Below are positions 17,088 through 40,242 of a stretch of DNA of 64,000 nucleotides, one piece after another (the first letter of the stretch is position 1; each line of letters opens with the position of its first letter). A program made the translations under genes and the position numbers. Below the pieces are notes generated by a model. It was not told where the DNA came from. It did no database searches and worked only from the letters and a program-made list of their open reading frames with translations. Source of the stretch: Alphaproteobacteria bacterium (lineage in GTDB: Bacteria; Pseudomonadota; Alphaproteobacteria; Rhizobiales; Rhizobiaceae); contig JANSYK010000003.1 of the NCBI GenBank assembly GCA_024742485.1, forward strand, positions 186,001 to 250,000. Reading direction: 5' to 3'.

Positions 17088-17112
17088 CGACGACAAAAGA
17101 GAGGAAATCACC

Positions 17113-18207: not shown

Positions 18208-18702
18208 TTAGTCTTTGCCGCCGGCAGGATGCATCGGCGCGCGGCTTGCGTCGTTGTTTTCCTGAATGAGTTTGCTCATGAGCTCCATCAGCGTTGCATA
18301 TTCATCCGGGCTCAGCGGCTTGGAAAGGCGTCGTTGAGCCTCGATCATGGCAGGCTGAACGGCATCGACGAATGTCTGGCCCTTTGGCGTGATCCGAGTG
18401 AGTTTGGCGCGCTTGTCCTTCAGGCTGGGTGGGCGCTCCAGAAGTTCTCTGCGTTCAAGACGTCGAACAACATCCGCCACGGTATTTCGGTCGACGCCAA
18501 GTTGCTTGGCGATCGACACCTGATCAAGCGACTGACGGTCATAAAGAACCGACAGAACACCGAACTGCACGGGTGTGATATTGAAATCGTCACATTCTTC
18601 CAGAAACATCGCGACATGAATCTGATGAAGCCTTCGGATGAGGAATCCGGGGCGATTCCATAAATCCGTGTAGTCGCGTCTCGTCTGATTTTTGCCGGTC
18701 AT
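18208..18702 (-). CDS. MarR-family transcriptional regulator
   Basis: A 164-residue MarR-type winged-helix regulator. The recognition region is VSIAKQLGVDRNTVADVVRRLE (about residues 63-84; quoted within the limit in two parts: VSIAKQLGVD and RNTVADVVRRLE), followed by the wing with DKRAKLTRITPKG. It is encoded divergently from the 11-gene hyuA-cofGH operon. Nearly identical 18-bp palindromes lie on the promoters of that operon and of the TRAP importer, the length and symmetry expected of a MarR dimer site. It probably represses both and responds to the substrate or a pathway CoA ester. Confidence 0.9.
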   Translation of the reverse strand: MTGKNQTRRDYTDLWNRPGFLIRRLHQIHVAMFLEECDDFNITPVQFGVLSVLYDRQSLDQVSIAKQLGVDRNTVADVVRRLERRELLERPPSLKDKRAKLTRITPKGQTFVDAVQPAMIEAQRRLSKPLSPDEYATLMELMSKLIQENNDASRAPMHPAGGKD

Positions 18703-18829: not shown

Positions 18830-18857
18830 TTGACTCCCGTTAATTACGTAGTACACT
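18830..18857 (+). promoter_or_regulatory. Candidate sigma70 promoter of the hyuA-cofGH operon
   Basis: TTGACT at 18830 and TACACT at 18852 are separated by 16 bases and read towards hyuA. The -10 element lies inside the palindrome at 18845-18862, so a bound regulator would block it. The leader to hyuA at 19092 is then about 230 bases; I saw no clear structure or ORF in it. Apart from this promoter and operator, the 389-bp gap after marR holds nothing recognised. Confidence 0.5.
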
Positions 18858-18862
18858 ACCTA
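18845..18862. promoter_or_regulatory. MarR-type operator, copy 1
   Basis: TACGTAGTACACTACCTA contains the perfect inverted repeat GTAGT-AC-ACTAC. It differs at only two of 18 positions from the sequence at 35447-35464 on the TRAP transporter promoter. Size and symmetry fit a MarR dimer, and marR is the adjacent divergent gene. Confidence 0.75.
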
Positions 18863-19091: not shown

Positions 19092-21170
19092 ATGGGCTGG
19101 ACAATAGGTGTTGATGTCGGCGGAACCTTCACGGATTTCTTTGCCTCCTGTGATGAGACCGGGGCTTTCCATGTGGGAAAAACCCCCTCGACACCGGCCA
19201 ATCCCGCACAGGCAATCCTGACCGGTCTCGTCGCGCTTTGCGAACAGTTCGAGATTCCGCTGGATAAGATTGGGCGGCTGTCGCACGGTACGACCGTCGG
19301 CACCAATGCATTGATTCAGCGCACCGGAAGTCCCGTCGCGCTGATCACGACAAAGGGGTTTCGCGATCTGCTTGAGATCGGACGCCAGACCCGGCCACAC
19401 ATGTATGATCTGCAGAAAGATCATCCTGCACCGCTGGTGGAGCGGGAGCACCGAATCGAGCTTGCCGAACGGATCGGTGCGGCTGGTGAGATTGTCAATA
19501 CACCGGGTGAAGATGACATTGTATCGGCAGTTGAGGCGGTGGTCGCATCCGGCGCCGAGGCCTGCGCCGTTGGTTTCCTGTTCGCCTTTCGCAATCCCGT
19601 CCACGAGCAACGCGTTGCAGACGTGTTGCGCGAACGCGCACCGGATTTGGCGATCTCGATTTCATCGGAAGTGCAACCGGAATTCAGGGAATATGAGCGG
19701 CTGTCAACAACCGTGCTGAACGCTTATCTGCAACCGGTTTTGGGTGAATATCTGCAGACGCTTGAAAAGGGTGTCGCCGACAGCGCACCCATGGCGACTT
19801 TGGGCATTAATCAGTCGAGCGGCGGTCTGATGTCGCCGCGGCGCGCACGAGAGTTTCCCGTTCGCACAGCGTTGTCGGGTCCGGCTGCGGGAGCTGTCGG
19901 CGCTGCCCATGCAGCACGTCAGACGGGTCGACGCAACGTGATCACCCTGGATATGGGCGGCACGAGTGCCGATGTCGCCCTGATCCGTGATTACAAGGTT
20001 GATCTGAGCTTCGATCGCGACGTGGCAGGCTTTCCCATTCGCATGCCCTGCGTGGACGTGGAGACGGTCGGTGCCGGCGGTGGATCGATTGCCTGGTTTG
20101 ACAGGGACGGTCTTCTCAAGGCCGGTCCGATCAGTGCCGGGGCAGATCCCGGGCCAGCATGCTATGGCCGCGGTGGAAATCGTCCGACCGTGACCGATGC
20201 CAATCTGCTGCTCGGACGATTGTCGTCGCGCGGCCTGCTGGACGGCGATATGGGACTGGACCGGTCCTTGTCATCTGCCGCCTATCAGCCGCTTGCCGAC
20301 AAGCTTGGCTTCACCGTTGAGAAAACGGCCCATGGAGTGCTCGGGATTGTAGTTGCCAACATGGTGCGAACCATCCGCACCATTTCAGTCGAACGCGGAC
20401 ACGATCCCCGTGACTTTGTCCTGATGCCCTTCGGCGGGGCCGGTCCCCTCCATGCACGTGATGTTGCGGTCAGTCTGGGCATCGGTGAATTGCTGGTACC
20501 GGCGGCGCCCGGCATCGTCTGCGCCCAGGGATTGCTCGTTTCGGACCTCAAGGAAGATTTTGTCGTCAGCAAGCGTTTTCGCCTCGATGATGCTGGGCTC
20601 GGCCAATTGCGCGAAGCACTGGATGGGCTACAGAAGAGCGCTGTTGAGTGGTTTGATGCGGAAAAGGCGCCTGAGGACGGACGCCGTCTCGATCTGGTCG
20701 TGGACGCCCGTTATGTCGGGCAGAATTTCGAACTGGCGGTGCCGGTTGCTGGTGCCCGCACCCTCTCGGCGCAGGCACTGCCGGATCTGGAGCAGATGAC
20801 CGCAAGATTCAGCGCGGCGCACGAGACCGCCTATGGTTATGCCAGCGCCGACGATCCGATTGAAATTGTCAACGTCCGGCTATCGGCGAGCGCTCGTCTT
20901 CACAATCAGGAAGACCGGCCCAACCCCACCGAAACGCCGTCCGCGCCACAGGTCCGTGACCGGCGTGAGGTCTATTTCGATGCGGACAGCCCCATTGAGG
21001 CAAATGTTTATTCAAGGGCGGATCTGGTACCCGGACAAAGCCTGACCGGTCCGGCCATTATCGAACAATTGGACACGACAACACCCCTCTATACGGGGGA
21101 TCGGGCAGTCGTGACAGCCGACGGACATCTGATCATCGCGATCAATGCCGATGCGGGAGACGGATCATGA
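19092..21170 (+). CDS. hyuA: Hydantoinase/oxoprolinase family protein, subunit A
   Basis: A 692-residue protein of the HyuA / 5-oxoprolinase / acetone carboxylase beta family. It has an actin-like ATPase fold: phosphate-1 motif IGVDVGGTFTDFF at residues 5-17, SHGTTVGTNALIQRTG near 75-90, and DMGGTSADVALI in the middle. With subunit B such enzymes use ATP to phosphorylate and open a lactam or hydantoin ring, or to activate a ketone for carboxylation. First gene of the 11-gene operon; GAGGTGG precedes its ATG and its stop overlaps hyuB by ATGA. The true substrate is not known; the symbol names the family only. Confidence 0.9.
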   Translation: MGWTIGVDVGGTFTDFFASCDETGAFHVGKTPSTPANPAQAILTGLVALCEQFEIPLDKIGRLSHGTTVGTNALIQRTGSPVALITTKGFRDLLEIGRQTRPHMYDLQKDHPAPLVEREHRIELAERIGAAGEIVNTPGEDDIVSAVEAVVASGAEACAVGFLFAFRNPVHEQRVADVLRERAPDLAISISSEVQPEFREYERLSTTVLNAYLQPVLGEYLQTLEKGVADSAPMATLGINQSSGGLMSPRRAREFPVRTALSGPAAGAVGAAHAARQTGRRNVITLDMGGTSADVALIRDYKVDLSFDRDVAGFPIRMPCVDVETVGAGGGSIAWFDRDGLLKAGPISAGADPGPACYGRGGNRPTVTDANLLLGRLSSRGLLDGDMGLDRSLSSAAYQPLADKLGFTVEKTAHGVLGIVVANMVRTIRTISVERGHDPRDFVLMPFGGAGPLHARDVAVSLGIGELLVPAAPGIVCAQGLLVSDLKEDFVVSKRFRLDDAGLGQLREALDGLQKSAVEWFDAEKAPEDGRRLDLVVDARYVGQNFELAVPVAGARTLSAQALPDLEQMTARFSAAHETAYGYASADDPIEIVNVRLSASARLHNQEDRPNPTETPSAPQVRDRREVYFDADSPIEANVYSRADLVPGQSLTGPAIIEQLDTTTPLYTGDRAVVTADGHLIIAINADAGDGS

Positions 21171-22858
21171 CGGATGAATTGCCGAAGCTCGATCCGATAA
21201 AGCTGGAAATTCTGGCCAACGGATTGCGGTCGATCGCAGACGAGTGTTTTGCCGCACTCATGCGTTCCGCCTATTCCACCAACATCAAGGAACGTCGGGA
21301 TCATTCCATTGTGATCGTGGACCGGCAGGGCAGGCTGGTGGTGCAGGCGGCGTTGACCCTTCCGATCCACATCGCCTCCATGAGCGGCCTGATGCGTTGC
21401 CTGCTCGACAAGTTCGGCGACGATATTCAGGAGGGTGACATATTCGTCGCCAATGACCCGCACACCGCCGGTGGTACACACCTGCCGGACATCAACTATG
21501 CAATGCCGGTTTTCATCGATGGCGAACTGGTCGCATTTATCTGCAATATCGCGCACCACGCGGATGTTGGCGGCATGGTGCCCGGGTCGATGGCCGGTGG
21601 CATGTCCGAAATTTATCAGGAAGGCCTGAGAATACCGGTCGTCAAGCTGTTTCGCCGTGGCGAATTGCAGACCGACATCATGGACATTCTTTTACTGAAT
21701 GTACGCGTTCCCGATGAACGGCGCGGCGATCACAATGCGCAGATTGCATCGTGCAAGCTTGGCGCACGGCGTTTCCTTGAAGTCGTTGGCGCGCACGGGC
21801 TGCCCAGTGTTCTGGCCGCCTTTGACGAAATCATTTCTCGAACTGCTCAACGCATGCGGGCCGCGATTTCCGAAATTCCGGACGGATCCTATGAATTCGA
21901 GGACTTCATGGACGGTGACGGCATCGATACGATGGATATTCCGATCCGGATCGCGATAACCGTCAAGGGCGACAATATTCGCCTGGATTTCGCCGGCACG
22001 AGCCCCCAGGTAGCTGGCAATATCAACACCACGATGAACGCGGTCCAGGCCAGTGTCTGTTACGCCCTGATCGCGGTTCTCGATTCCGAGATTCCGAGCA
22101 ACCAGGGTGTGCTGGATGTCGTTGACATCGTCGCCGAGCCCGGCACGCTCCTCAATTCGATCTTTCCGGCACCGGTTGCAGCCCGCGCGCATGCCTGCCA
22201 GCGGGCCATCGATGTGGTACTCGGTGCCCTGTCACAGGCGTTGCCTGACAAGGTCATTGCGGCCGCCAACGGCGCCAACACCACTGCCGTGTTTTCGGGC
22301 GTCGATCCGCGCACGGACAGCCCCTATCTCTATCTGGAGACGCTCGGTGGCGGAATGGGCGCGCGAGCGACCAAGGACGGCAAGGACGGCGTGCAGGTCG
22401 GCATTACCAATACGTCGAACCTGCCGGTGGAATCCATCGAACAGGAATACCCGCTGCGTGTCGAGGAATACAGCCTGGTGGAGGATTCGGGCGGTGCCGG
22501 CAGATATCGTGGCGGAATGGGATTGCGCCGGGTCGTCACACCCGTCGATCACAGCTGTGTCTTCAACGGTGCGGGGGAGCGATTTCGCTATCGTCCCTGG
22601 GGTCTTTTCGGCGGCCAGGATGGTGGCTCCGGCCAGTTCCTGATCCGCAACGGAGAGGGCGAAAAAAGGCTGGGCGACAAGCCCGGCGAGGTGGATGTGT
22701 CGCCACAGGCACGGATCGTGATCGAAACACCCGGTGCCGGCGGCTATGGCGCCCCCGAGGAGCGCGATGGTGATGCTGTCAATCGCGATCAGCGCAGTGG
22801 CAAGTTCTCATCAACATACATTCAAAGCAACTACAGCGGCGTCCAACGGGAGAGGTAG
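21167..22858 (+). CDS. hyuB: Hydantoinase/oxoprolinase family protein, subunit B
   Basis: A 563-residue HyuB-type subunit. Conserved stretches include ECFAALMRSAYSTNIKERRD near the N-terminus (the family Glu and Arg-Ser region), VANDPHTAGGTHLPDI near residue 95 and GGGMGARATKDG near 400. It overlaps hyuA by four bases, as expected for a stoichiometric partner. The C-terminal 40 residues after the GYGAPEER segment are typical in position. Together HyuAB should catalyse the ATP-dependent step on a cyclic amide or ketone substrate. Confidence 0.9.
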   Translation: MTDELPKLDPIKLEILANGLRSIADECFAALMRSAYSTNIKERRDHSIVIVDRQGRLVVQAALTLPIHIASMSGLMRCLLDKFGDDIQEGDIFVANDPHTAGGTHLPDINYAMPVFIDGELVAFICNIAHHADVGGMVPGSMAGGMSEIYQEGLRIPVVKLFRRGELQTDIMDILLLNVRVPDERRGDHNAQIASCKLGARRFLEVVGAHGLPSVLAAFDEIISRTAQRMRAAISEIPDGSYEFEDFMDGDGIDTMDIPIRIAITVKGDNIRLDFAGTSPQVAGNINTTMNAVQASVCYALIAVLDSEIPSNQGVLDVVDIVAEPGTLLNSIFPAPVAARAHACQRAIDVVLGALSQALPDKVIAAANGANTTAVFSGVDPRTDSPYLYLETLGGGMGARATKDGKDGVQVGITNTSNLPVESIEQEYPLRVEEYSLVEDSGGAGRYRGGMGLRRVVTPVDHSCVFNGAGERFRYRPWGLFGGQDGGSGQFLIRNGEGEKRLGDKPGEVDVSPQARIVIETPGAGGYGAPEERDGDAVNRDQRSGKFSSTYIQSNYSGVQRER

Positions 22859-22862
22859 TCTG

Positions 22863-23891
22863 ATGCGCGTTTATTCCATGGTTCGACCAAAACGGCTGGA
22901 AGAATTCCCCGATGCCATCGCCCGGGCCGAGAAGCTCGGCTATGACGGCACCACACTGCTTGAATTGACGGTACCGCCGACCTTGTCGGCGGTCGCCGGT
23001 GCCATGACGACCAGCAAAATCGATCTTCTGACAGGCGTTTTCGTGGCCTTTCCGCGCAGTCCGATGGCAACAGCCTATGACGCCTGGTCCATACAGTCAC
23101 TCTCCAAGGGTCGATTCCAGTTGGGAATTGGCAGCCAGATCAAGGCGCACCTGACGCGTCGGTTCAGCATGGAATTCAAGCCGCCGGTCAAGCGGATGCG
23201 GGAGTATATTCAGTCGCTGCATGCGATCTGGGACTGCTGGCAGAATGGCACGAGGCTCGACTATGAGGGTGAGTTCTACAAGTTCAACCTCATGATTCCC
23301 TACTACAATCCCGGGCCTCTCGATTACCCAAGGGTTCCGATCTACGTTGCCGCCATCAACAAGCTGATGTGCCAGTTGACCGGCGAACTCGCCGACGGAC
23401 ACCTGCCGGGCGACCCGATTACCGACAAATGGTTCGCCGAGGTGATGCTTCCCAACCTCGAAATCGGTGCAAAAAAGGCTGGCCGCACGCTCGATGATAT
23501 CGATCTGGGCAGTTACGGATTCATTGGCTGTGCAACCACCGATGAGGGTCTCGAGCGGGTTCGTGAAGGGCTTAAGGAGCGCGTGGCGCTTTATGCTTCG
23601 ACGCCGGAATACGAAAAGATGCTGGATATGCACGGCTGGGACGTGAATCTGACCCACTTCATCGAAATGGCGCGCGAGCAGAAATGGAAGGAAATGGCGC
23701 GCCTCGTATCCGATGAGATGCTTGAGGCATACGCCGTGATCGCCAAGCCACAGGAGTTGCCGGCGGCGCTCGAACGGCGTTTTGGCGGGCAGGTGAATCG
23801 GCTTCAGGTCGATGAATCATGGTTCGATGGCTTGTCAGACGACGATATTGTCGGGCTGGTTTCCGAGATCAAGAAAATCCCCTCGCGGTAA
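22863..23891 (+). CDS. LLM-class F420-dependent oxidoreductase, first copy
   Basis: A 342-residue bacterial-luciferase-like TIM-barrel oxidoreductase. Features are LGYDGTTLLEL near the N-terminus, LSKGRFQLGIGSQIKAH at about residues 80-96 and the C-terminal half with LPNLEIGAKKAGRT. The pattern resembles the F420-dependent branch of the luciferase-like family more than FMN monooxygenases, and the operon encodes F420 synthesis, so F420H2 as cofactor is likely but inferred. The start at 22863 (MRVYSMVRPK) has GAGAGGT upstream; the open frame extends back into hyuB without support. Confidence 0.87.
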   Translation: MRVYSMVRPKRLEEFPDAIARAEKLGYDGTTLLELTVPPTLSAVAGAMTTSKIDLLTGVFVAFPRSPMATAYDAWSIQSLSKGRFQLGIGSQIKAHLTRRFSMEFKPPVKRMREYIQSLHAIWDCWQNGTRLDYEGEFYKFNLMIPYYNPGPLDYPRVPIYVAAINKLMCQLTGELADGHLPGDPITDKWFAEVMLPNLEIGAKKAGRTLDDIDLGSYGFIGCATTDEGLERVREGLKERVALYASTPEYEKMLDMHGWDVNLTHFIEMAREQKWKEMARLVSDEMLEAYAVIAKPQELPAALERRFGGQVNRLQVDESWFDGLSDDDIVGLVSEIKKIPSR

Positions 23892-23892
23892 G

Positions 23893-25395
23893 ATGAGCAA
23901 CGAGGGGCAAACCGAATTGGCCGTGGCTGGCCGGGACTACGCGGCGCAGGAGTGGGCGCGGCTGTGTGCCCGCGATCCGCAGTCGCTTGCCGTCGTGGAA
24001 CCGGATCGGCGGGTCACGGTCGGTGAACTCGTCCAAAAAGCCCGTGACAGGGCCGGGCAATTGATCGCCCAGGGTGTGGTTCCCGGCGACCGGGTCATTG
24101 TGGCGCGACCCAACATGATCGAATTCGTGGTTGATTACCTCGCCATCCGCCTGTGCGGAGCTGTGCTGGTCAATCTTCCCTGGTCGGCCGGCACCAGCAT
24201 CACGGAGCTGGCGGACATTCTGGATGCACGCTGTGTGATTTTGACCGAACATCTTGTCGGCGATAATCCATTGTTCGATCAGCTCGGCGATCGGCGTTTC
24301 CGACCAGATGAACCGGCGCCGATTGGCCCTCCTGCTCCGGCGGCACGGTTCGAAGAAGAGCTCGCCTGGCTAGCCTGTACCTCCGGCACGACGGGGACCC
24401 CGAAGGCTGCGATGCATACGGGGTCGACACTGGAACGGCAGACGGAAGTATTTGCAGAGCATTTCGGTCTGACGGCCGATGATCCGATTCTTGTTTCTTC
24501 ACCGGTCGGACATGCGGTTGCGCTGCTTTTTGGCGTGCGTCTGTCGCTGTTTCTCGGGTCCCTCATGGTCCTGGTGCCGCGATGGAAGATCGAGACCGCC
24601 GTTGACCTGATCGATCAATACAAATGCGTCTATACGGTTGCGCCGACACCTTTTCTTGTCGATGCGGTGGCCTATGCGGAGGAGCAGGGTTGCGAGCGGC
24701 TGAAATCGCTGCGGTTCTTCCCGTCGGCCGGAGCACCGGTGCCGCGCTCTCTGGTCAAGCGCGCATATGATGCGCTGCCCCATTGCCAGGTCTGGTCCTA
24801 TTTCGGCACGTCGGAAGCCGGCGCCGTGACGGCGGTCCCGCTCGATGCCGATCTCGACAAACGTCTCCAGACCGACGGCACCGCGCTGCCGGGGATTGAA
24901 ACCCGCGTCGTGGATGGCGAACTCGAATTGCGTGGTGCCAGCCAGATGATGAGCGGCTACTGGAGTGGTGATCCGGGAGGCCGATTGAAGGACGATGGCT
25001 GGTATTCCACCGGCGATGCGGCCCTGCAACGCGATGACGGTTATATCCGCATGATCGGCCGGGCCCGCGATATCATCCTGCGCGGCGGTGAGAACATATC
25101 GCCGCTTGAAATCGAAAATGTGTTGCTCGGACATCCAGCCGTCAATGATGTGTCGATTGTCGGCTATCCCGATGACCGGCTCGGATCCCGACTGGCCGCT
25201 GTTGTTGTTGCAACGGCGCCAGTTTCGCTTGAGGATCTTCGCGAGCGGTGTCGGGAGGTTGGGCTCGACAAGGCAAAATGGCCTGAATTCATGACTGAAA
25301 TCGACATCATTCCCCTGTCCGCGATCGGCAAGGTTCGCCGCGACGTTCTGGAGGAAATGGTTTTGGAACATATCAAACGGGATGTGTCGGCCTGA
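23893..25395 (+). CDS. AMP-dependent acyl-CoA synthetase/ligase
   Basis: A 500-residue ANL-superfamily enzyme. The ATP-binding P-loop is CTSGTTGTPKAAMHTG (about residues 161-176), motif A5 is YFGTSEAGAVT, motif A7 is STGDAALQRDDGYIRMIGR with the hinge RARDIILRGGENISPLEIE, and the C-terminal catalytic Lys is in LSAIGKVRRDV. It adenylates a carboxylic acid and forms a CoA thioester. Substrate unknown; closest in style to aryl or medium-chain acid ligases. It starts one base after the LLM stop. The operon also holds a thioesterase, so CoA activation and release seem to flank a reductive step. Confidence 0.9.
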   Translation: MSNEGQTELAVAGRDYAAQEWARLCARDPQSLAVVEPDRRVTVGELVQKARDRAGQLIAQGVVPGDRVIVARPNMIEFVVDYLAIRLCGAVLVNLPWSAGTSITELADILDARCVILTEHLVGDNPLFDQLGDRRFRPDEPAPIGPPAPAARFEEELAWLACTSGTTGTPKAAMHTGSTLERQTEVFAEHFGLTADDPILVSSPVGHAVALLFGVRLSLFLGSLMVLVPRWKIETAVDLIDQYKCVYTVAPTPFLVDAVAYAEEQGCERLKSLRFFPSAGAPVPRSLVKRAYDALPHCQVWSYFGTSEAGAVTAVPLDADLDKRLQTDGTALPGIETRVVDGELELRGASQMMSGYWSGDPGGRLKDDGWYSTGDAALQRDDGYIRMIGRARDIILRGGENISPLEIENVLLGHPAVNDVSIVGYPDDRLGSRLAAVVVATAPVSLEDLRERCREVGLDKAKWPEFMTEIDIIPLSAIGKVRRDVLEEMVLEHIKRDVSA

Positions 25396-25424
25396 CCGAT
25401 GTGTCGCGAGCAGAGGAGTTACCC

Positions 25425-26357
25425 ATGGCAACGGTCCAGGTCGGCTTTCACGTTGATGGCGATGTTTGGGAACCGGAACAGATTACCGGCGTCGAGGATG
25501 CCGGTTTCGACATTTTGACAACCGGTGAGCACATCATTTTCTTCCGCCCCATTCTCGATACCGTCACGGTTCTGTCCTACGCAGCAGCGGTGACCAAGCG
25601 CATCAAGCTTGTGCCCTCCACATTGATCCTGCCACTGCGGCATCCGACCCTCATGGCCAAGGAACTGACTTCGATCGACATTCTGTCGAAAGGCCGGTTG
25701 ATTGCCTCCGTCGGCATTGGTGGCGACTATCCGCGTGAGTTCGATGCGTGCGGAATTTCCATGAAGGAGCGTGGTGTACGTGCCAATGAAGGCATTGAGA
25801 TCATGCGCAAATACTGGTCCGGTGAACGTTTTGACTACCACGGAAAGATCTTTCAGCTCGACGATGTCGACATGCTGCCACCGCCTTATCAAAAGGGCGG
25901 TCCACCGCTCTGGGTGTGTGGGCGCAGCGATCCTGCGATGCGTCGCGCAGCACGGCTGGGTGACGGATGGCAACCCTATATGTACACACCGGACCTGCTG
26001 AAGGAGTCTGTCGACAAGGTCCATGGATTTGCCGACGAGATTGGCCGTCGACTGCCCGAGGACTTTGCCTTTACCAGTTTTGTCTATGTGAGCATGCATG
26101 ACGACGTTCAGGAAGCCCGCGACAGGGCCATCGAACAGCTCTCCTACCGGTTCAATATGCCGTTTGAGAAAATCGTCGACAAATATTGCGCCTATGGTCC
26201 GTCGGACCGGATTATCGAAAATCTCGCGGAATATGTGGCCAGCGGAGCAAATCACCTCATCGTCGCTCTGGTCATGCCGCCCGAAGAGCGCATGGATTAC
26301 GTCGAAAAATTCGCGACGGAGATCCTCCCGGCTCTTCAGCAGATGAAGACGCCGTGA
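25425..26357 (+). CDS. LLM-class F420-dependent oxidoreductase, second copy
   Basis: A 310-residue luciferase-like TIM-barrel protein, distinct from the first copy. Typical segments are LVPSTLILPLRHPTLMAKEL, ILSKGRLIASVGIGGDYPRE and PLWVCGRSDPAMRRAARLGDG. These match the F420-dependent type in which a non-prolyl cis peptide region follows VPST. GAGGAG lies ahead of the ATG at 25425. Two different LLM enzymes in an F420 operon suggest two sequential reductions or hydride transfers. Electron donor F420H2 is inferred from the neighbours. Confidence 0.87.
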   Translation: MATVQVGFHVDGDVWEPEQITGVEDAGFDILTTGEHIIFFRPILDTVTVLSYAAAVTKRIKLVPSTLILPLRHPTLMAKELTSIDILSKGRLIASVGIGGDYPREFDACGISMKERGVRANEGIEIMRKYWSGERFDYHGKIFQLDDVDMLPPPYQKGGPPLWVCGRSDPAMRRAARLGDGWQPYMYTPDLLKESVDKVHGFADEIGRRLPEDFAFTSFVYVSMHDDVQEARDRAIEQLSYRFNMPFEKIVDKYCAYGPSDRIIENLAEYVASGANHLIVALVMPPEERMDYVEKFATEILPALQQMKTP

Positions 26358-26364
26358 GGCGGTG

Positions 26365-26814
26365 ATGGACAAACATCTGACCATTGCGGACATGCAGGCG
26401 CTGATCAATCAGTCGCGCTTTCATCAGCTGTTTCAACCCGAAGTGCAGGATGTCGACTACGACCGACTTCAGTTGATTATCAAAATGGCGATGAGCGATC
26501 ATTTCGAGCGCCAGCCTGGGACCGATCAGTGGCATGGCGGCACTATTTCGGCGATCATAGATATTGCCGGTTGCTATTGCCTCTCCCTTTTGGCCGGCGA
26601 GCCGCTACCGACAATCAATTTTCGGGCCGATTATCTCAGACCGGCTGTCGGAACGGATTTGACAGCCATTGCACGCATCCGTCGCGCCGGCCGGACGGTC
26701 GGCGTTGTCGATGTGGATGTCGAGGATGACAACCAACGGCTGGTCGCAGTCGGACGGGCGTGTTTTTCCATTCAAAAGCGGCCACCGGCAGCAGCAACCA
26801 ACAGCGAGGGATAG
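26365..26814 (+). CDS. PaaI-type hotdog-fold thioesterase
   Basis: A 149-residue hotdog-fold protein. The active-site region HGGTISAIIDIAGCYC matches the PaaI/YbaW pattern in which a Gly-Gly and an Asp in the long helix shape the CoA thioester site, and LPTINFRADYLRPAVG is the following beta strand. It probably hydrolyses a CoA thioester made by the ligase at 23893. It begins seven bases after the LLM gene; a GTG one codon earlier is possible. Confidence 0.85.
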   Translation: MDKHLTIADMQALINQSRFHQLFQPEVQDVDYDRLQLIIKMAMSDHFERQPGTDQWHGGTISAIIDIAGCYCLSLLAGEPLPTINFRADYLRPAVGTDLTAIARIRRAGRTVGVVDVDVEDDNQRLVAVGRACFSIQKRPPAAATNSEG

Positions 26815-26818
26815 GACC

Positions 26819-27517
26819 ATGACAAGCGAAGCGGACAGCCAGACAATATCCATCGTCGGCGGAACCGGCGCCCTCGGTTCCGGACTGGCCATGCGATGGG
26901 CCAGGGCAGGGCACCGGATCACCATCGGTTCCCGCGACGGCGATCGCGCTGTTCAAGTTGCAGCAGACCTTTCGGCAAAAGCTGATGCCTCCATCTCCGG
27001 AATGGAAAATGCGGGCGCAGCGGCGGCCGGTGACATTGTCGTTTTGACCGTCCCCTATTCGAACCATCAGGCCACCCTGGAGGCCATCAGGCCGCATTTG
27101 GCCGGCAAGATTCTGGTCGATGTCACCGTTCCGCTCATGCCACCCAAGGTGCGTACCGTACAATTGCCCGAGGGTGGCTCGGTTGCGAAAGGAACACAAA
27201 CATCTCTGGGAGAGGACGTCCGTGTTGTTTCGGCGTTCCAGAATGTTGCCGCAACCCATTTGGCCGATCTCGATCATGCGATTGACTGCGATGTCCTGGT
27301 TTGTGGCAATGATCCGGAGGCGCGCGGCATGGTCATTGGACTGGCCAAGGATGCAGACATGCGTGCCTGGCATGCCGGCCGCATCGACAATTCAACGGTT
27401 GCGGAAGCCCTGACATCAACATTGATATTCATCAATGGACACTACAAGATCGACGGAGCCGGATTGCGCATCACCGGTGAACCGGGCTCTTCAACACCGG
27501 CCAAACCCGAAAGCTGA
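26819..27517 (+). CDS. npdG: NADPH:coenzyme F420 reductase
   Basis: A 232-residue protein of the F420:NADPH oxidoreductase (Fno/NpdG) family. The N-terminal dinucleotide site reads ISIVGGTGALGSGLAMRWA, followed by IGSRDGDRA, the NADPH 2'-phosphate recognition segment (Ser-Arg). The shared motif VVSAFQNVAATHL lies at about residues 138-150. It transfers hydride from NADPH to F420, supplying F420H2 for the two LLM enzymes. In picrate and dinitrophenol degraders the same gene type sits beside F420-dependent reductases. It starts at 26819, five bases after the thioesterase gene. Confidence 0.9.
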   Translation: MTSEADSQTISIVGGTGALGSGLAMRWARAGHRITIGSRDGDRAVQVAADLSAKADASISGMENAGAAAAGDIVVLTVPYSNHQATLEAIRPHLAGKILVDVTVPLMPPKVRTVQLPEGGSVAKGTQTSLGEDVRVVSAFQNVAATHLADLDHAIDCDVLVCGNDPEARGMVIGLAKDADMRAWHAGRIDNSTVAEALTSTLIFINGHYKIDGAGLRITGEPGSSTPAKPES

Positions 27518-27524
27518 AAGCCGA

Positions 27525-28295
27525 ATGGTCCGCGAACTGAGCATCAGGGCACTTGAAAATTTCCCGCTGGTGGAGGCTGGAGATGATCTTGCACGTCTGA
27601 TCGCGGATGCAATGGCGGAAAACAAGATAGAACCGATGGACGGTGACATCTTCGTTCTCGCCCAGAAAATCGTGTCCAAGGCTACGGATTGCCTGGTCGA
27701 TCTGCAGACAATCACACCGGGTGAAAAGGCTCGGGAACTGGCAAGTATCGTCAACAAGGATCCCCGGCTGGTCGAAGTCATATTGACGGAAAGTCGCGCC
27801 GTTCTGCGCCACGTGCCGGATGTTCTGATCACCGAACACCACAGCGGCTGGATCATGGCCAACGCCGGTATCGATGCATCAAATGTGGCCGGCGAGGATG
27901 AGGTCCTGCTGTTGCCGCGTGACCCGGACGGGTACTGCGGTAAGCTGCGTCAGCAACTCCAGACAAGGTATGCGGTGAATGTCGGCGTGCTCATCAATGA
28001 CAGTTTTGGTCGCCCCTGGCGGCTGGGCACAACCGGCGTCGCGCTCGGCGCGGCCGGATTGCCCAGCCTGTGGGACCGTCGTGGCGACACCGATCTCTTT
28101 GGACGGGAGCTGAAAGTCAGTCAGCAGGCCATTGCCGACGAGATTGCCGCGGCGGCGTCGCTTCTCCAGGGGCAGGGCAATGAAGGCCGGCCCGTGATTC
28201 TCATCAGGGGCTTTGATTTTGCTGCACCTGGTTCACCGCCCGAGCGACCGGCCGCGGATCTTCTTCGCAGCACCGGCGAGGATTTGTTTCGATGA
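27525..28295 (+). CDS. cofE: Coenzyme F420-0:L-glutamate ligase
   Basis: A 256-residue CofE-type enzyme that adds glutamate residues to F420-0 using GTP. Landmarks are [20 protein letters not shown] (about residues 41-60), [11 protein letters not shown] with the metal-binding Glu, [19 protein letters not shown] and the [21 protein letters not shown] region. It lacks the C-terminal FMN-reductase-like domain that is fused to it in actinobacterial FbiB, so the final dehydro-F420 reduction step, if it occurs here, needs another enzyme. The start at 27525 gives an ATG eight bases after npdG; its 3' end overlaps cofD by ATGA. Confidence 0.92.
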
Positions 28296-29254
28296 CCGGC
28301 GACCGCATCATAGCCTTGTCTGGCGGTGTCGGCGGCGCCAAGCTCGTTTTGGGCTTGTCCCATGTTCTGTCTGCCGAAAATCTTATGGTCGTGACCAACA
28401 CAGCCGATGATTTTGACCATTTGGGTCTGCGCATCTGTCCCGACACCGATACGGTGATCTACACGCTGTCAGGCCTGTCCGACCCGCAACGTGGCTGGGG
28501 CAGGGTGAATGAAACCTGGAAATTCATGGAAGCGCTGCGCGCGATGGGGGGTCCAGATTGGTTCAATCTCGGTGATGGCGATCTTGCATTGCACGTCATG
28601 CGGACGGACCGCTTGAACGCTGGAGAAACGTTGACGGATGTCATGCGCCAGATCGCAGCGGATCTTGGCATTGGGCCGGTAGTGGTGCCCATGTGCGATC
28701 AACCGGTGTCGACCATGGTTCAAACGACGGATGGACCGCTTGCCTTTCAGCACTATTTCGTGCGGGAGCAATGTGCCCCAACGGTGACGGGGTTCGAGTT
28801 TGCCGGCATCGACGCGGCCCTTCCCAATCCCGTGCTCATGGAGGCGCTGGATGACAAACCTGCCGCCATTCTGATCGCACCGTCCAACCCCTATGTCAGC
28901 GTTGATCCGATCCTCGCGGTGCCGGGTCTGCGTTCGGCACTCAAGCAGAGCAAAACACCCATCATTGCGGTATCGCCGATCATCGGCGGGCAGGCGATAA
29001 AGGGACCGGCGGCGAAGATGATGGCTGAATTGGGCGCATCTGTATCGACCGTCGAAATTGCCCGTTTCTATCAGGGGTTTGTGGATGGTCTGATTATCGA
29101 TGAAATCGACCGCCATCTTGCTGCCGAAGTGGCCGCGTTTGGCATAGAGGTCAGGGTGGCGCAGACCGTGATGAGAAGCCTGGACGACCGTATCGCGCTG
29201 GCCAGGCTCGCCCTCAGTTTTGCCGATGAGCTTCGCGAAAGGGACGGACAGTGA
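28292..29254 (+). CDS. cofD: 2-phospho-L-lactate transferase (or phosphoenolpyruvyl transferase) CofD/FbiA
   Basis: A 320-residue CofD-type enzyme. The N-terminal nucleotide motif LSGGVGGAKLVLGL is diagnostic, followed by NTADDFDHLGLRICPDTDTV, which in the family contacts FO and metal. It joins FO to a phosphorylated three-carbon unit from the CofC product to make F420-0 or its dehydro form. It overlaps both neighbours by four bases (ATGA upstream, GTGA downstream). Which three-carbon unit is used (phosphoenolpyruvate, 2-phospholactate or 3-phosphoglycerate) cannot be decided from sequence alone. Confidence 0.93.
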   Translation: MTGDRIIALSGGVGGAKLVLGLSHVLSAENLMVVTNTADDFDHLGLRICPDTDTVIYTLSGLSDPQRGWGRVNETWKFMEALRAMGGPDWFNLGDGDLALHVMRTDRLNAGETLTDVMRQIAADLGIGPVVVPMCDQPVSTMVQTTDGPLAFQHYFVREQCAPTVTGFEFAGIDAALPNPVLMEALDDKPAAILIAPSNPYVSVDPILAVPGLRSALKQSKTPIIAVSPIIGGQAIKGPAAKMMAELGASVSTVEIARFYQGFVDGLIIDEIDRHLAAEVAAFGIEVRVAQTVMRSLDDRIALARLALSFADELRERDGQ

Positions 29255-29916
29255 CCGACATCATCATCCCCATCAAGCACCTGTCCGCAGCGAAAACCCG
29301 GTTGGCCTGCCAGTTGAGTCCGGACAAACGGGCCGGCCTCGTTCTGGCGATGCTGCAGGATCTTCTGACAACGATTACCGGTATCGGACACCGGCGAATA
29401 TGGATCGTCACTAGTGACAGGACAGTCGTCCAAACCGTTCGTCGCTTCAATGTCTCCTGGGTGCCGGAGACACGGGCACGAGGTTACAACGCCGCTGTAA
29501 CTTTGGGCATTGCATCGGTGCCTGCCGGAAGCGATATCGCGATCGTACCCGGTGACATTCCGCTCGCCAAACCCGATGAGATCGCCCGGCTGATTGCACC
29601 CACCGATCCGTCACGGCCGACCGTCCGTCTTGTCCCGTCTCGGGACCGGCAGGGCACCAACGGACTATTCATGTCAGCCAATGCCCGTATCGAACCCGGA
29701 TTTGGACCGGGGAGTTTCAAGGGACACACGCGCAGAGCCATGGCCAGGCATCTTGAACCGACGAACCTGGAAGCGCCGGGAATGGCCCTGGACATCGATA
29801 CGCCGGCCGATTTGCTGGATTTAAGCGCATGTGCCGGCACCGGCGTCACCGGCCGGTACCTGCTTGGAATGGGCTTGGCCGACGACCATGATCGCTATGA
29901 CAGGGGGGCGGCATGA
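29251..29916 (+). CDS. cofC: 2-phospho-L-lactate guanylyltransferase family protein CofC/FbiD
   Basis: A 221-residue nucleotidyltransferase. The N-terminal signature IIIPIKHLSAAKTRL (about residues 4-18), IVPGDIPLAKPDEI with the metal-binding Asp and the C-terminal FGPGSFKGHTRRA match CofC. It activates a phosphorylated three-carbon acid with GTP for CofD. It begins with GTG in a GTGA overlap with cofD and ends in ATGA with the FO synthase gene. Proteobacterial homologues are known to vary in substrate (for example 3-phosphoglycerate in Paraburkholderia), so the tail of this F420 may differ from the mycobacterial form. Confidence 0.9.
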   Translation: MTDIIIPIKHLSAAKTRLACQLSPDKRAGLVLAMLQDLLTTITGIGHRRIWIVTSDRTVVQTVRRFNVSWVPETRARGYNAAVTLGIASVPAGSDIAIVPGDIPLAKPDEIARLIAPTDPSRPTVRLVPSRDRQGTNGLFMSANARIEPGFGPGSFKGHTRRAMARHLEPTNLEAPGMALDIDTPADLLDLSACAGTGVTGRYLLGMGLADDHDRYDRGAA

Positions 29917-32273
29917 ACGTCGTGAAAACCCGGATTGGAGGCTCGAACCGCTTGTCCGACGAACAGGCTCTCGATCTGCTCAATCAGCCTTTTGAAAGCG
30001 TCCGCCTGCGGGCGGTCGCCATGCGCGACAGCGGCCATGGGCGGCTCATCAGTCACTCGAAGAAGGTGTTCATACCGCTGACCCAATTGTGCCGTGATGT
30101 GTGCCACTATTGCACCTTCGCCAAAGCGCCAAGAAGGCTCGATGCGCCGTATCTGATTGCCGAAGAGGTCCTGGAGATTGCTCATGCCGGCAAGGCGGCC
30201 GGCTGCAAGGAGGCGCTGTTTACGCTTGGTGACAAGCCCGAATTGCGTTACCGGGCCGCGCGTCAGGCTTTGGACGAACTCGGTTTCGCCAGCACGATCG
30301 AATATCTGAATGCCATGGCCGCTCTGGTTTATCGAGAAACGGGTCTTCTTCCACATCTCAATCCGGGGGTTATGACGGCCGACGAGATTGCATCCTTGCG
30401 GGAGGTTTCGGTCTCGATGGGCATCATGCTGGAAAGCACATCGCAGCGCCTGATGGAGCCTGGCCAGTGTCATCACGGTTCACCGGACAAGGAACCTTCT
30501 ATCCGCCTTCAGACCATTGAGGAATGCGGCAGACAGAAAGTACCATTCACCAGCGGTATTTTGATCGGAATCGGTGAGACGCGTCACGAACGCATTGAGA
30601 GCCTGCTGGAATTGCGCCGGCTGCACGAGCGCCACGGGCATCTGCAAGAAATCATCATACAGAATTTTCGAGCAAAGCCCGGCACACGAATGGCGGGTGC
30701 CCCAGAACCCGATTTGGAAGACTTGCAGCAGACCATCGCGATGGCCCGGCTGATATTCGGCCCGACCATGTCCATTCAGGCACCGCCAAACCTTTCGGCT
30801 GGCGGTGTGAAGGAATTGATTGATGCGGGCATCAATGACTGGGGTGGTGTATCGCCGGTGACCCCGGATCACGTCAATCCCGAAGCACCCTGGCCACATC
30901 TCGACGATCTGGCGGAGCAAACCGCAAGAAGCGGCAAGATTCTGGTCGAGCGTCTCGCTGTCTATCCTGCCTACGCGCTACACGGGGAGACATGGCTGGA
31001 CCGCGCATTTCAATCCCCGGTGCTTGGAGCGATCGACGGCGATGGTTTGGCCCGAACGGATGAATGGGTTCCGGGTTATGCAGGACAGGAGCTGCCGGAC
31101 CTGACGTCGACTCCAGGCTTCCTGAATGATCGCGGGCTCGACCGGATCCTCCTCGAGGCGACGCAAGGGCGCGACCTGTCGGAGACGGAAGTCGCACGGC
31201 TTCTGGCCGCACGGGACGGCGAAATCGCCGATGTGACCGAGGCCGCTGACCGTCTGAGGCGAAAGGTCAATGGTGATGACGTCAGCTATGTGGTCACACG
31301 GAACATCAACTACACCAATATCTGCTATTACAAATGCAAATTCTGCGCCTTCTCGAAAGGCAAGATGAGTGAGAACCTGCGCGGGCGTCCCTATAATCTG
31401 ACACCCGATATTGTCGTGCAGCGCGCCCGTGAGGCCTGGGACCGCGGTGCTGTCGAGGTCTGCCTGCAGGGCGGCATTCATCCCGATTACACGGGGCAGA
31501 CCTACCTGGATATCCTGCGGGCGATCAAATCCGAACTGCCGGACATGCATGTGCACGCATTTTCACCGCTCGAAGTGTACCAGGGGGCTGCCACTCTTGG
31601 TGTTCCAGTGGCGGAATTTCTCGGACAATTGATCGAAGCAGGACTTGGCAGCCTGCCAGGCACAGCTGCGGAAATCCTTGACGACGAGGTGCGAGCGACG
31701 CTGTGCCCGGACAAGATCAACACAAGGCAATGGTTCGACGTCATCGACACGGCACACCGCCTCGGATTGAAAACCACGGCCACGATCATGTTCGGCCACA
31801 TCGACCGTCCTCACCACTGGGCACGCCATCTTTTGCGCCTGCGCGCGCAGCAACAGCGCACGGGAGGGTTCACGGAACTCGTGCCGCTGCCCTTCGTCCA
31901 CATGGAGTCGCCGATCTATCTCAAGGGGCTGTCCCGGCGCGGTCCTACCTGGCGGGAATCGATTCTGTTGCATGCCGTAGCACGATTGGCGCTGCATCCG
32001 CTCATCACCAACATTCAGGCCTCCTGGGTCAAGCTCGGTCGCAATGGAATCGCGGCTTGCCTCGGGGCAGGGGTCAACGATATCGGTGGAACCTTGATGG
32101 ACGAGACCATCACGCGTTCAGCCGGAGCAGAGCATGGTCAGGAAATGACGCCCGAGGCCATGGAGGCGCTGTTGGCCAGACTCGATCGGCCATCCCGTCA
32201 ACGCACGACGCTTTATGGAAATGCATCCAACGAACGGCGGAATGCCTCCTTTACATCCGTGGTGCCCGCCTGA
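29913..32273 (+). CDS. fbiC: Bifunctional FO synthase (fused CofG-CofH, FbiC type)
   Basis: A 786-residue protein with two radical-SAM domains. The first iron-sulfur motif, CRDVCHYC, is at about residues 60-67 (CofG half, 1-370); the second, CYYKCKFC, is at about 470-477 (CofH half, 410-770). Together they make the deazaflavin FO from tyrosine and 5-amino-6-ribitylamino-uracil. The CofG-first fusion is the bacterial FbiC form; methanogens use separate proteins. It is the last gene of the operon and overlaps cofC by ATGA. With cofC, cofD and cofE this completes the core F420 pathway in one transcript. Confidence 0.94.
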   Translation: MNVVKTRIGGSNRLSDEQALDLLNQPFESVRLRAVAMRDSGHGRLISHSKKVFIPLTQLCRDVCHYCTFAKAPRRLDAPYLIAEEVLEIAHAGKAAGCKEALFTLGDKPELRYRAARQALDELGFASTIEYLNAMAALVYRETGLLPHLNPGVMTADEIASLREVSVSMGIMLESTSQRLMEPGQCHHGSPDKEPSIRLQTIEECGRQKVPFTSGILIGIGETRHERIESLLELRRLHERHGHLQEIIIQNFRAKPGTRMAGAPEPDLEDLQQTIAMARLIFGPTMSIQAPPNLSAGGVKELIDAGINDWGGVSPVTPDHVNPEAPWPHLDDLAEQTARSGKILVERLAVYPAYALHGETWLDRAFQSPVLGAIDGDGLARTDEWVPGYAGQELPDLTSTPGFLNDRGLDRILLEATQGRDLSETEVARLLAARDGEIADVTEAADRLRRKVNGDDVSYVVTRNINYTNICYYKCKFCAFSKGKMSENLRGRPYNLTPDIVVQRAREAWDRGAVEVCLQGGIHPDYTGQTYLDILRAIKSELPDMHVHAFSPLEVYQGAATLGVPVAEFLGQLIEAGLGSLPGTAAEILDDEVRATLCPDKINTRQWFDVIDTAHRLGLKTTATIMFGHIDRPHHWARHLLRLRAQQQRTGGFTELVPLPFVHMESPIYLKGLSRRGPTWRESILLHAVARLALHPLITNIQASWVKLGRNGIAACLGAGVNDIGGTLMDETITRSAGAEHGQEMTPEAMEALLARLDRPSRQRTTLYGNASNERRNASFTSVVPA

Positions 32274-32420: not shown

Positions 32421-33734
32421 CTATCCCAGCAGGTTGGGCAGCCAGGTCGCAATGCCGGGAAACACGATCATGATGCCGATACCGGTAAGGAACAGCACCA
32501 CGAACGGCCATACCGCCCTGTAAACATCGCTGATGCTCATTTCGGGCACGACGGCCTTGAAGGCGAACAGGGTGTAGCCAAAAGGTGGTGTGATGGCGCC
32601 CAGCGTGATGTTGACCAGGAACAACAGCCAGAACCAGACAGGATCATAGCCCAGATCCGTGACAACCGGCTGATAGATCGGAATCGTCAGCAAAATGACT
32701 GCGATCGTGTCGATGAACATGCACAGAACGAACGGCACGGCCAGCATGATGATCAGCATAGCGATGGGACCGAAGCCAAGATTGGCCACAAGCTCGACCA
32801 ATTCGCTGGTGGCGCCGGTAAACGCCAGCAACTGCGTAAACATTTTCGACATGGCCATGATCGCCAGGATCATGGCCGAAACGGTGATCGACGCCATGAC
32901 CGAATCCCAGATCATCCTGAAGCTGAGATTGCGGTAGATTGCCGCCGTGATCAGGGCGCCGAGAACGCCGGTCGCCGCCGACTCCGACGGCGTTGCGATG
33001 CCCAGCATGATGAAGCCCATGACCGAGAATATGACGATCGCGAAGGGCAAAATACGTATGAGCGCCATGACCTGTTCGCCGATGGCAACGTTTTCGCGCT
33101 CGGAAGCGATGTTGCTCGGAGCCAGTTTCGGGTTCATGGCGATCCGGACAAAGACATAAATCAGGAAAATCCCGCCAAGCAGCAGACCCGGCACAACACC
33201 GGCAATCAGCAATTTTGCAATGGACACATCGGCGATCGACCCGACGATAATGGCGAGCAGGCTGGGCGGGATGATGGGCGCGAGGCTGGCGCCGCTGACA
33301 ATCAGGCCCGCGGCGATGTCCCGATCATATCCCCGGGTCTGCATGCCCGGCATGATGGCGCGCCCCAGCATGGCCGCGACCGCCATGGCAACGCCGGAAA
33401 GTGCACCGAAAACCGCAGACAGAACGACCACAAGAACATATTGGCGCCCACGCACCCGACCGACCAGCTTGTCGATGGAATCGAACAGCACATCCATGGT
33501 GCCCGAACGAAACAGAAGTTCGCCCATCAGGATGAACAGCGGTATCGACGCCAGTGATGTGGTCGAAACCGTGTCCAGAATGCTGTTGGCAAACATCGGA
33601 AAGCCGGCGGGGCCGATGATCACATAAACGCCGCACAGGATAGCAAACAGAAAGGCAAGAAAGATCGGAGCGCCCGAAAGAAACAGGGCAAAAAGGATGG
33701 CGATGCCGATCAAGAGTGTCGTGTACCACTCCAT
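32421..33734 (-). CDS. dctM: TRAP transporter large permease (DctM)
   Basis: A 437-residue polytopic inner-membrane protein of the DctM family, with about a dozen hydrophobic segments. Typical stretches are FLSGAPIFLAFLFAILCG near the N-terminus, GRAIMPGMQTRGYDRDIAAG and SGASLAPIIPPS (the conserved SG-x-LAP-I-PPS region). It is the ion-coupled transport subunit, working with DctQ and DctP to take up a carboxylate. Its ATG shares a base with the dctQ stop (TGATG). The shared MarR-type operator upstream of dctP ties it to the F420 operon. Confidence 0.93.
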   Translation of the reverse strand: MEWYTTLLIGIAILFALFLSGAPIFLAFLFAILCGVYVIIGPAGFPMFANSILDTVSTTSLASIPLFILMGELLFRSGTMDVLFDSIDKLVGRVRGRQYVLVVVLSAVFGALSGVAMAVAAMLGRAIMPGMQTRGYDRDIAAGLIVSGASLAPIIPPSLLAIIVGSIADVSIAKLLIAGVVPGLLLGGIFLIYVFVRIAMNPKLAPSNIASERENVAIGEQVMALIRILPFAIVIFSVMGFIMLGIATPSESAATGVLGALITAAIYRNLSFRMIWDSVMASITVSAMILAIMAMSKMFTQLLAFTGATSELVELVANLGFGPIAMLIIMLAVPFVLCMFIDTIAVILLTIPIYQPVVTDLGYDPVWFWLLFLVNITLGAITPPFGYTLFAFKAVVPEMSISDVYRAVWPFVVLFLTGIGIMIVFPGIATWLPNLLG

Positions 33735-34261
33735 CAGCTGGCGCTTCCGGCAAGTGTACTGGTGGTATCACGTTCGGAGGCTGGCGCATTTCGCAGCATG
33801 TAGAGGGAACTCAATGCCAGTCCATACGTGATGAACACGGACACCCACCACTGCGGAATGGGGATGATCGCCAGGGTCTCTATGTTTCGCGAATACTGCC
33901 TCAGATTTTCCTGCAGACTGATGATGGCAGCAAAGCCGAGGCAAGCAAATCCGATCAGATTGATGACGGTATGAAAATACGCCTTCAACCTGTCGGGCAT
34001 GATATCGACCAGGATCGTAACGGCCACATGGCCTTTGTCCTTGGTCACTTTCGGCAGGGCCAGGAATACCGAAGCGCACAAAAAGTAGGAGACGAAGTCG
34101 CTGACCCATGCCGTGGGCGCATTGAACATATAGCGTGTCACGACTTCATAAACATAGAAGGCCACGATGCAGATCAAACCGATTGCCGCCAGGAATGCAG
34201 CAGCCTTTGTGAGCCAATCGTGTAGGGTGCAGAGCCCGCCGAGTATTCTGTTCATGGCCAT
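33734..34261 (-). CDS. dctQ: TRAP transporter small permease (DctQ)
   Basis: A 175-residue membrane protein of the DctQ family with four probable membrane segments. The family pattern VVTRYMFNAPTAWVSDFVSY, with the Arg and the aromatic residues, is present at about residues 43-62. It scaffolds the DctM subunit. ATG codons at 34261 and 34255 are both possible starts. A hairpin separates it from dctP. Confidence 0.9.
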   Translation of the reverse strand: MAMNRILGGLCTLHDWLTKAAAFLAAIGLICIVAFYVYEVVTRYMFNAPTAWVSDFVSYFLCASVFLALPKVTKDKGHVAVTILVDIMPDRLKAYFHTVINLIGFACLGFAAIISLQENLRQYSRNIETLAIIPIPQWWVSVFITYGLALSSLYMLRNAPASERDTTSTLAGSAS

Positions 34262-40235: not shown

Positions 40236-40242
40236 GGCCGGC

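Follow-up and report, generated by a model that had tools for sequence, protein, structure and literature searches.

A candidate MarR-controlled operon joining F420 biosynthesis to hydantoinase-type, CoA-ligase and LLM genes in Proteobacteria

What might cofactor F420 be used for in an alphaproteobacterium whose genes for making it lie directly behind those of a hydantoinase-type enzyme? The question is raised by a 64,000-nucleotide stretch of a Rhizobiaceae genome (GenBank assembly GCA_024742485.1, contig JANSYK010000003.1, positions 186,001 to 250,000; hereafter the window), which contains a row of genes for HyuAB, two oxidoreductases of the luciferase-like monooxygenase (LLM) family, an acyl-CoA ligase, a thioesterase, the NADPH:F420 reductase NpdG and the F420 biosynthesis proteins CofE, CofD, CofC and CofGH. 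We suggest, with a probability of about 0.6, that this row is a catabolic operon regulated by MarR, probably spread by horizontal transfer, which supplies its own F420 for the pathway proposed below. The idea of a self-supplying catabolic unit under MarR control draws on the conservation of the locus, on a palindrome common to the operon and adjoining importer genes, on the location of the only two LLM genes of the genome and on the single clade formed by the operon CofD proteins.

Open reading frames of the window and their family matches gave eleven genes, all on the forward strand between 19092 and 32273, as initially annotated. Genes were named by Pfam and NCBIfam matches, with the curated NCBIfam cut-offs, and starts within the operon were adjusted by eye from the sequence (Table 1). 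The claim that the genes are joined by four-base overlaps or short gaps was borne out, the junctions being, in order, -4, 4, 1, 29, 7, 4, 7, -4, -4 and -4 bases. Promoter and terminator scans inside this interval stayed near chance, and the palindrome described below has no copy within 2 mismatches there. A single transcript of the operon appears probable.

Conservation of the gene order in other genomes had been proposed as a check on the locus, and the order is indeed kept in further loci. When a genome collection covering 84,980 species was scanned with LLM2, 126 pattern stretches and 16 relatives were obtained; since two exact peptides served as the search pattern, divergent copies will have been missed. 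Thirteen of these relatives lie in the operon, two (L126 and L127, at 55-56%) lack adjoining cof genes and one (L132) is a weak match. The carriers include Hoeflea poritis (strain E7-10 for L117), Rhizobiaceae, Hyphomicrobiales, Tepidamorphus, metagenome-assembled genomes of Rhodobacteraceae and four gammaproteobacteria (L121, L124, L125 and L131). Eight of the 13 loci (L117, L119, L120, L123, L124, L129, L130 and L131) have all eleven genes in the same order, the operon is cut by the end of the available sequence in L121, L125 and L128, and cofE and cofD are absent from the operons of L118 and L122, where cofC and cofGH are intact. Joints in the relatives are mostly shorter than 35 bases, with values of up to 82 (L121, L125), 135 (L124) and 141 bases (L131). 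Within the order, CofD exceeds its cut-off in 47 of 397 genomes; among 48 stretches of at most 20 kb that surround a CofD gene the whole set occurs only in L040, probably the same contig as L123, and of the 397 genomes only the window's and the one with L040 have LLM2 at E<=1e-90. A search of the class (385 genomes) with LLM1 yielded, besides the window's gene, only relatives of 29-44% identity in 29 genomes, and the best plasmid match of LLM2 was 35%.

Judged from these sequences, the operon copies share ancestry, and the unit has probably spread horizontally. CofD proteins from 11 operon copies formed one clade (100/99) in a tree of 66 proteins, from which L040 (as a copy of L123) and L072 (for its length) were left out. 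The nearest outsiders (94/97) came from the genomes of L126 and L127 (G784 and G785), which have LLM2 relatives outside the operon and a full CofD away from them. In an RpoB tree of 10 genomes the nearest neighbors of the window were L118, with 96% identity, and Hoeflea poritis, which suggests that its organism is close to Hoeflea and other Rhizobiaceae, and two gammaproteobacteria stood apart; RpoB was sought in 14 genomes, fragments from those of L122 and L040 were dropped and those of L124 and L125 gave none. A tree of joined HyuA, HyuB, LLM1, ligase and LLM2 grouped the window with the four gammaproteobacterial copies (98/99), whereas a tree of npdG, cofC and cofGH (without L121, L125 and L128) placed it weakly with alphaproteobacteria (81/85). 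Because the two sets place the window differently, exchange between parts of the operon is possible.

The losses of cofE and cofD look independent, since L117 and L123, close operon relatives of L118 and L122, respectively, keep both genes; the gap sites are at 12077-12101 in L118 and 12134-12363 in L122. A full cofD is present outside the operon in the genome of L118 (G777), and a 72-position cofD fragment occurs at a contig end in that of L122 (G778). CofD exceeded its cut-off in 8 of 9 genomes searched, the match being the operon's own gene in 5 of the 7 operon genomes. The genome of L118 also has a second F420 cluster (L142, 1499-7944), with a TIGR03842 LLM gene, npdG, cofE, cofD and two separate CofGH-related genes; a tripartite tricarboxylate-type transporter and a thiamine pyrophosphate enzyme (both named by eye) are encoded nearby.

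A divergent marR gene lies in front of hyuA, and genes for a tripartite ATP-independent periplasmic (TRAP) importer, dctPQM, converge on the operon from behind. The palindrome GTAGTAYACTAC occurs upstream of hyuA and again in the TRAP promoter of the window. On the hyuA side all 13 readable copies, that of the window among them, have it within 1 mismatch (exact in 7, one mismatch in 6), and on the dctP side it is found within 2 mismatches in 8 of 12 readable loci. With one mismatch allowed, the longer pattern GTAGTAYACTMCSTATT has exactly two sites in the window's 6.87-Mb genome, against 0 control matches; across 14 genomes it was matched in 10, and the control pattern gave 3 matches, in G780 and G783. 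We infer that the palindrome is a MarR operator common to the operon and the TRAP genes. The scan for the hyuA promoter was by itself near chance (9 found, 6.9 expected), and this promoter is credited because it is conserved together with the operator. As the dctPQM promoter ends at 35445, translation of dctP more likely starts at an inner Met (about 35361). Linkage of marR was seen in 12 of the 13 relatives, with a displacement behind dctP in L122; its side lies outside the available sequence in L128. Eleven of the 13 have linked TRAP genes: alphaproteobacterial copies carry them behind the operon, L124 and L125 in front of it, and none were found in the L121 stretch examined. The nearest solved match of DctP is 4mnc.

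CofGH (FbiC), CofC, CofD, CofE and NpdG all exceeded their curated cut-offs, so that the initial annotation of a full F420 route stood for these genes, but CofE has no nitroreductase domain and none was found elsewhere in the operon. Dehydro-F420 reductase was neither fused to CofE nor named among the operon genes, and no search elsewhere in the genome was made. The set would thus be complete only if 2-phospholactate is the starting compound for CofC and CofD or if the genome encodes a dehydro-F420 reductase elsewhere. According to the consulted part of PMC8764529, the CofC residue diagnostic of 3-phosphoglycerate use is Ser or Thr. At that position, mapped by reading alignments, all 13 operon copies, window included, have Gly and none has Ser or Thr, which suggests a CofC of the 2-phospholactate or phosphoenolpyruvate type.

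Probable users of the cofactor are LLM1 and LLM2, both of which scored above the cut-offs of LLM families named for F420 (343 versus 278 bits for TIGR03617 and 180 versus 167 bits for TIGR03619, respectively). The only PDB matches of LLM1 at E<=1e-10 were F420-dependent Mer proteins; LLM2 matched a luciferase-like monooxygenase best, and also FGD1, Mer and flavin mononucleotide (FMN) enzymes. An AlphaFold model of LLM1 from 13 orthologues was set aside, with a mean confidence score (pLDDT) of 39. That of LLM2 reached 89.7, and Foldseek placed Mer first with FMN enzymes close behind; as F420 and FMN enzymes are ranked together, no verdict on the cofactor was taken from this model. The window's genome has only two LLM genes (PF00296), both inside the operon. 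The same holds for the genome of L130 (G782), and of the three LLM genes in that of L118, two belong to the operon and the third to the second F420 cluster. The other eight genomes searched have 4 to 32 each, namely 4 to 12 in six operon genomes (G181, G778, G779, G780, G781 and G783) and 19 and 32 in G784 and G785, and there the link between LLM genes and F420 is not exclusive. An LLM enzyme is encoded in 39 of the 48 F420 stretches of the order, a count that has no background rate and comes from a model partly trained on these matches. As to other families, the PF04075 profile had no match in the window's genome and none in controls either, and was uninformative, and PF01243 had six matches in this genome. 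Taken together, LLM1 and LLM2 probably use F420, and in the reducing direction.

The consulted part of PMC8453981 describes the ATP motifs DxGGTxTD, DxGGT and GxxPGP in the large subunit of the HyuAB superfamily, and reports its ATP and metal motifs as common to carboxylases and lactamases. The three ATP motifs are kept in 13 of 13 HyuA sequences and the Asp-His-Asp-His metal site (D45-H105-D108-H130) in 13 of 13 HyuB sequences, window included. In the PDB, HyuA matched N-methylhydantoinase with 515 bits, 6yra with 393, acetophenone carboxylase with 263 and acetone carboxylase with 234; the corresponding values for HyuB were 288 and 248 bits for the first two and 128 and 69 for the carboxylases. 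By our own reading of its residue numbering against PMC8453981, as far as that text was available, 6yra is caprolactamase. HyuAB thus scores nearer to ATP-dependent lactamases than to carboxylases, and hydrolysis of a cyclic amide is predicted.

The initial annotation had HyuAB act on an imported acid before the ligase. The compact gene string, the conserved and regulated-looking promoter, NpdG, the two probable F420 users and the adjoining importer agree with the pathway drawn there, but the first place of HyuAB was not supported: the parts are accounted for equally well, or better, if the ring is opened once the acid has been activated and reduced. In the scheme that we prefer, MarR without its effector would cover the hyuA -10 box and, at dctPQM, the promoter spacer. 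Both promoters would be released by the effector, which is presumably either the substrate or a metabolite. An organic acid might then be brought in by the TRAP system and converted to a CoA thioester by the ligase, NpdG would generate F420H2 from NADPH, and LLM1 and LLM2 might transfer hydrides to the activated ring. The cyclic amide so formed would be phosphorylated and then hydrolyzed by HyuAB, the thioesterase might release the opened acid, and CofGH, CofC, CofD and CofE could supply the cofactor from the same transcript. This order of steps is suggested by the gene content. A nitrogen in the substrate ring is expected because HyuAB is of the cyclic-amide-hydrolase type, and the pairing of such hydrolases with molybdenum (Mo) hydroxylases in other F420 loci similarly points to an N-heterocyclic acid.

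Several observations weigh against this reading. The ligase matched 4-chlorobenzoate ligase (144 bits), FadD13 (141 bits) and dihydroxybenzoate ligase (140 bits) nearly equally, and its best NCBIfam match was a medium-chain fatty-acid ligase, far below the cut-off; since fatty-acid and aryl-acid ligases score almost alike, this protein says little about the acid. A dctP operator within 2 mismatches was not found in 4 of the 12 loci (L119, L120, L122 and L129), about 2.2 matches of this kind are expected per 64 kb under single-base shuffling, a few such matches do lie inside genes, and no TRAP genes were detected within the 40 kb examined at L131. Fold matches of LLM2 include F420 and FMN enzymes alike. 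In 6 of the 8 other operon genomes searched, LLM genes were noticed away from every F420 cluster seen, and F420 may consequently have other uses there. A Mo hydroxylase adjoins the operon in one of the 13 relatives (L130) in the flanks examined; close relatives of it (68-73%) occur in 3 of the 10 other genomes searched, and the window's genome has nothing better than a 35% match. On these grounds the idea that a Mo hydroxylase regularly belongs to the operon was rejected.

Alternatively, the LLM enzymes might oxidize the substrate with F420, as F420-reducing glucose-6-phosphate and alcohol dehydrogenases do, with NpdG passing the electrons to NADP+. FGD1 is both a sequence and a fold neighbor of LLM2, F420 alcohol dehydrogenase is a further fold neighbor, and the NpdG family is reversible, but LLM1 matches only Mer at the threshold given above (although Mer is reversible too) and a low-potential deazaflavin would be of little use for a plain oxidation; we consider this direction unlikely. 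That HyuAB is a ketone or enol carboxylase of the acetone or acetophenone type, with no cyclic amide involved, seems decidedly unlikely. Such enzymes belong to the same superfamily and have its ATP and metal motifs (PMC8453981, in the part consulted), yet the hydrolases outscore them for both subunits (for HyuA, the carboxylases reach 263 and 234 bits or less), and the operon contains no third subunit, whereas acetone carboxylase has three according to the same partial source.

It is quite improbable that the LLM enzymes are FMNH2-dependent oxygenases and that the F420 of the operon serves other enzymes. The best PDB sequence match of LLM2 and the mixed fold matches speak for such a function; both proteins, however, exceed the cut-offs of families named for F420, no flavin reductase is among the named operon genes, npdG lies two genes behind LLM2, and the window's genome has no other gene of the LLM family to use F420, although it may encode F420 enzymes of other families. 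Ligases, thioesterases and F420 reductases are also found in natural-product clusters, and the operon might accordingly make or modify a small molecule, with the TRAP genes a mere neighbor. This is highly improbable, as the importer genes have the palindrome too at 8 of 12 loci, 11 of the 13 relatives show linkage to TRAP genes and no carrier protein or assembly enzyme is among the named genes. A catabolic operon with reducing LLM enzymes remains our preferred reading.

Table 1. Predicted genes and regulatory features of the operon and the adjoining importer genes in the window
Feature	Position	Strand	Description
marR	18208-18702	-	MarR-family regulator, divergent from operon; Pfam MarR
hyuA promoter	18830-18857	+	sigma-70-type, TTGACT-16-TACACT
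operator 1	18848-18859	.	MarR-type GTAGTACACTAC overlapping hyuA -10 box; MarR binding predicted
hyuA	19092-21170	+	HyuA, ATP-binding subunit of ATP-dependent lactamase/hydantoinase type; motifs DVGGTFTD, DMGGT, GADPGP
hyuB	21167-22858	+	HyuB, metal-site subunit; tetrad D45-H105-D108-H130
LLM1	22863-23891	+	TIGR03617 LLM oxidoreductase
acyl-CoA ligase	23893-25395	+	AMP-binding family; top solved match 4-chlorobenzoate-CoA ligase
LLM2	25425-26357 (alternative GTG start 25401)	+	TIGR03619 LLM oxidoreductase
thioesterase	26365-26814	+	hotdog-fold acyl-CoA thioesterase (Pfam/NCBIfam)
npdG	26819-27517	+	NpdG, NADPH:F420 reductase; TIGR01915 195 bits, cut-off 150
cofE	27525-28295	+	F420-0:glutamate ligase; TIGR01916 264 bits, cut-off 181
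cofD	28292-29254	+	CofD; TIGR01819 297 bits, cut-off 257
cofC	29251-29916	+	predicted guanylyltransferase of 2-phospholactate/phosphoenolpyruvate type; TIGR03552 159 bits, cut-off 105
cofGH	29913-32273	+	fused FO synthase CofGH (FbiC); NF006687 1152 bits, cut-off 1018
dctM	32421-33734	-	TRAP transporter DctM
dctQ	33734-34261	-	TRAP transporter DctQ
dctP	34384-35427	-	TRAP solute-binding protein DctP
dctPQM promoter	35445-35473	-	TCGACA-17-CATACT
operator 2	35450-35461	.	GTAGTACACTAC, exact, in spacer of dctPQM promoter

Other genes of the window were also noted. The end of a Mo hydroxylase large subunit (6-1193; 32% to that of L130) lies 18 kb before the operon. Next to the operon, 13781-18171 codes for a mandelate-racemase-type enolase and three xylose-isomerase-type barrels, and no genes of these types were seen beside the operon in the flanks of the relatives. 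An oligopeptide-type ATP-binding cassette (ABC) system, an Asp/Glu/hydantoin racemase and an IclR regulator are located at 38209-45500, and a fumarylacetoacetase-type hydrolase, a metallo-beta-lactamase-fold protein and a flavin adenine dinucleotide monooxygenase stand in a row, resembling aromatic catabolism, at 50421-54419. Among the relatives, the operon of L130 adjoins a glycine-betaine-type ABC system. In the genome of L127, relatives of LLM2, HyuAB and the ligase form one cluster, and HyuAB, a Mo hydroxylase and a flavoenzyme of the old yellow enzyme type occur elsewhere. Readings of the flanking genes as ectoine, sugar-acid or nicotinate (NicC/NicE) pathways were abandoned, as the flanks vary between loci.

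With regard to known systems, caprolactamase CapAB, N-methylhydantoinase and 5-oxoprolinase are like HyuAB of the window in the ATP motifs of the large subunit and the D-H-D-H site of the small one, and this family supplies its best PDB matches. The NCBIfam CapA and CapB equivalogs were not reached by HyuA (553 bits) and HyuB (305 bits), which attain 55% and 31% of the required score of 1000, and the window proteins differ further in being joined to F420 and CoA genes. Mycobacterium, a genus that makes F420, reportedly degrades isonicotinate via citrazinyl-CoA: a hydroxypyridine acid is carried as its CoA ester, the ring is reduced and a cyclic imide is hydrolyzed. The logic of that route is the same as that proposed for the operon; the window operon has no Mo hydroxylase.

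A parallel, catabolic-looking cluster is present on pSymA of Sinorhizobium meliloti (R28; L111, L205), where npdG, cofE, cofD, cofC and cofGH are annotated with a CoA transferase, a TIGR03619 LLM enzyme, a dihydroorotase, a deacylase, a three-subunit Mo hydroxylase and also a transhydrogenase; its cofE is missing from the annotation table and was found by tblastn. This cluster differs from the operon in its CoA, hydrolase and import genes, its LLM enzyme is 35% identical to LLM2 and its CofD falls outside the operon clade. In another family of the order, L050 (2-19274) has HyuAB (HyuA being cut by the end of the stretch), an M20 hydrolase and a Mo hydroxylase beside cofE, cofD, an LLM gene, cofC and cofGH. 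It is possible, though doubtful, that these three arrangements represent a general F420-dependent reductive route of Proteobacteria for N-heteroaromatic acids, assembled more than once, with the cofactor genes travelling with the pathway. Such a route might begin, if required, with a Mo hydroxylase that oxygenates the ring, and continue through a CoA ester, hydride transfer by LLM enzymes and opening by a cyclic-amide hydrolase. Its candidate substrates would be hydroxypyridine carboxylates, for example citrazinate, or N-methylpyridone acids derived from marine betaines, for example homarine or trigonelline. Plasmid-borne F420 genes were further seen in Aromatoleum, Paraburkholderia, Agrobacterium, Novosphingobium and Croceicoccus (L112-L116) with different partner genes; in the Novosphingobium stretch only cofE and cofD were found.

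A literature search on the pathway and nearby subjects, limited to parts of the papers retrieved, found no description of the operon, nor of this combination of known enzyme families with a known cofactor. In the part consulted, PMC13390433 names Mgd, which is not among the operon genes, where it cites a 2026 paper on homarine breakdown that may overlap with the present reading. The role of F420 in Alphaproteobacteria is left open in the consulted part of a 2021 review (PMC8498797). The unit described here leads to a concrete hypothesis, in which a single regulator calls up F420 synthesis when one pathway needs it and the likely users can be named. The same set is present in other alpha- and gammaproteobacteria, and this offers a role for the cofactor that can be tested in bacteria for which its purpose has been unclear. 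If the hypothesis holds, it would add a catabolic route not described before, and the genes for a cofactor would have spread along with the enzymes that use it. In F420-dependent catabolism of actinobacteria, the cofactor genes are not known to lie in the catabolic operon. The picrate (npd genes) and aflatoxin systems combine an NADPH:F420 reductase with F420H2 reductases that act on electron-poor rings (PMC8498797, in the same part). The window operon, unlike these actinobacterial systems, brings biosynthesis, reductase, probable users, hydrolase and regulator together in one unit, and does so in Proteobacteria.

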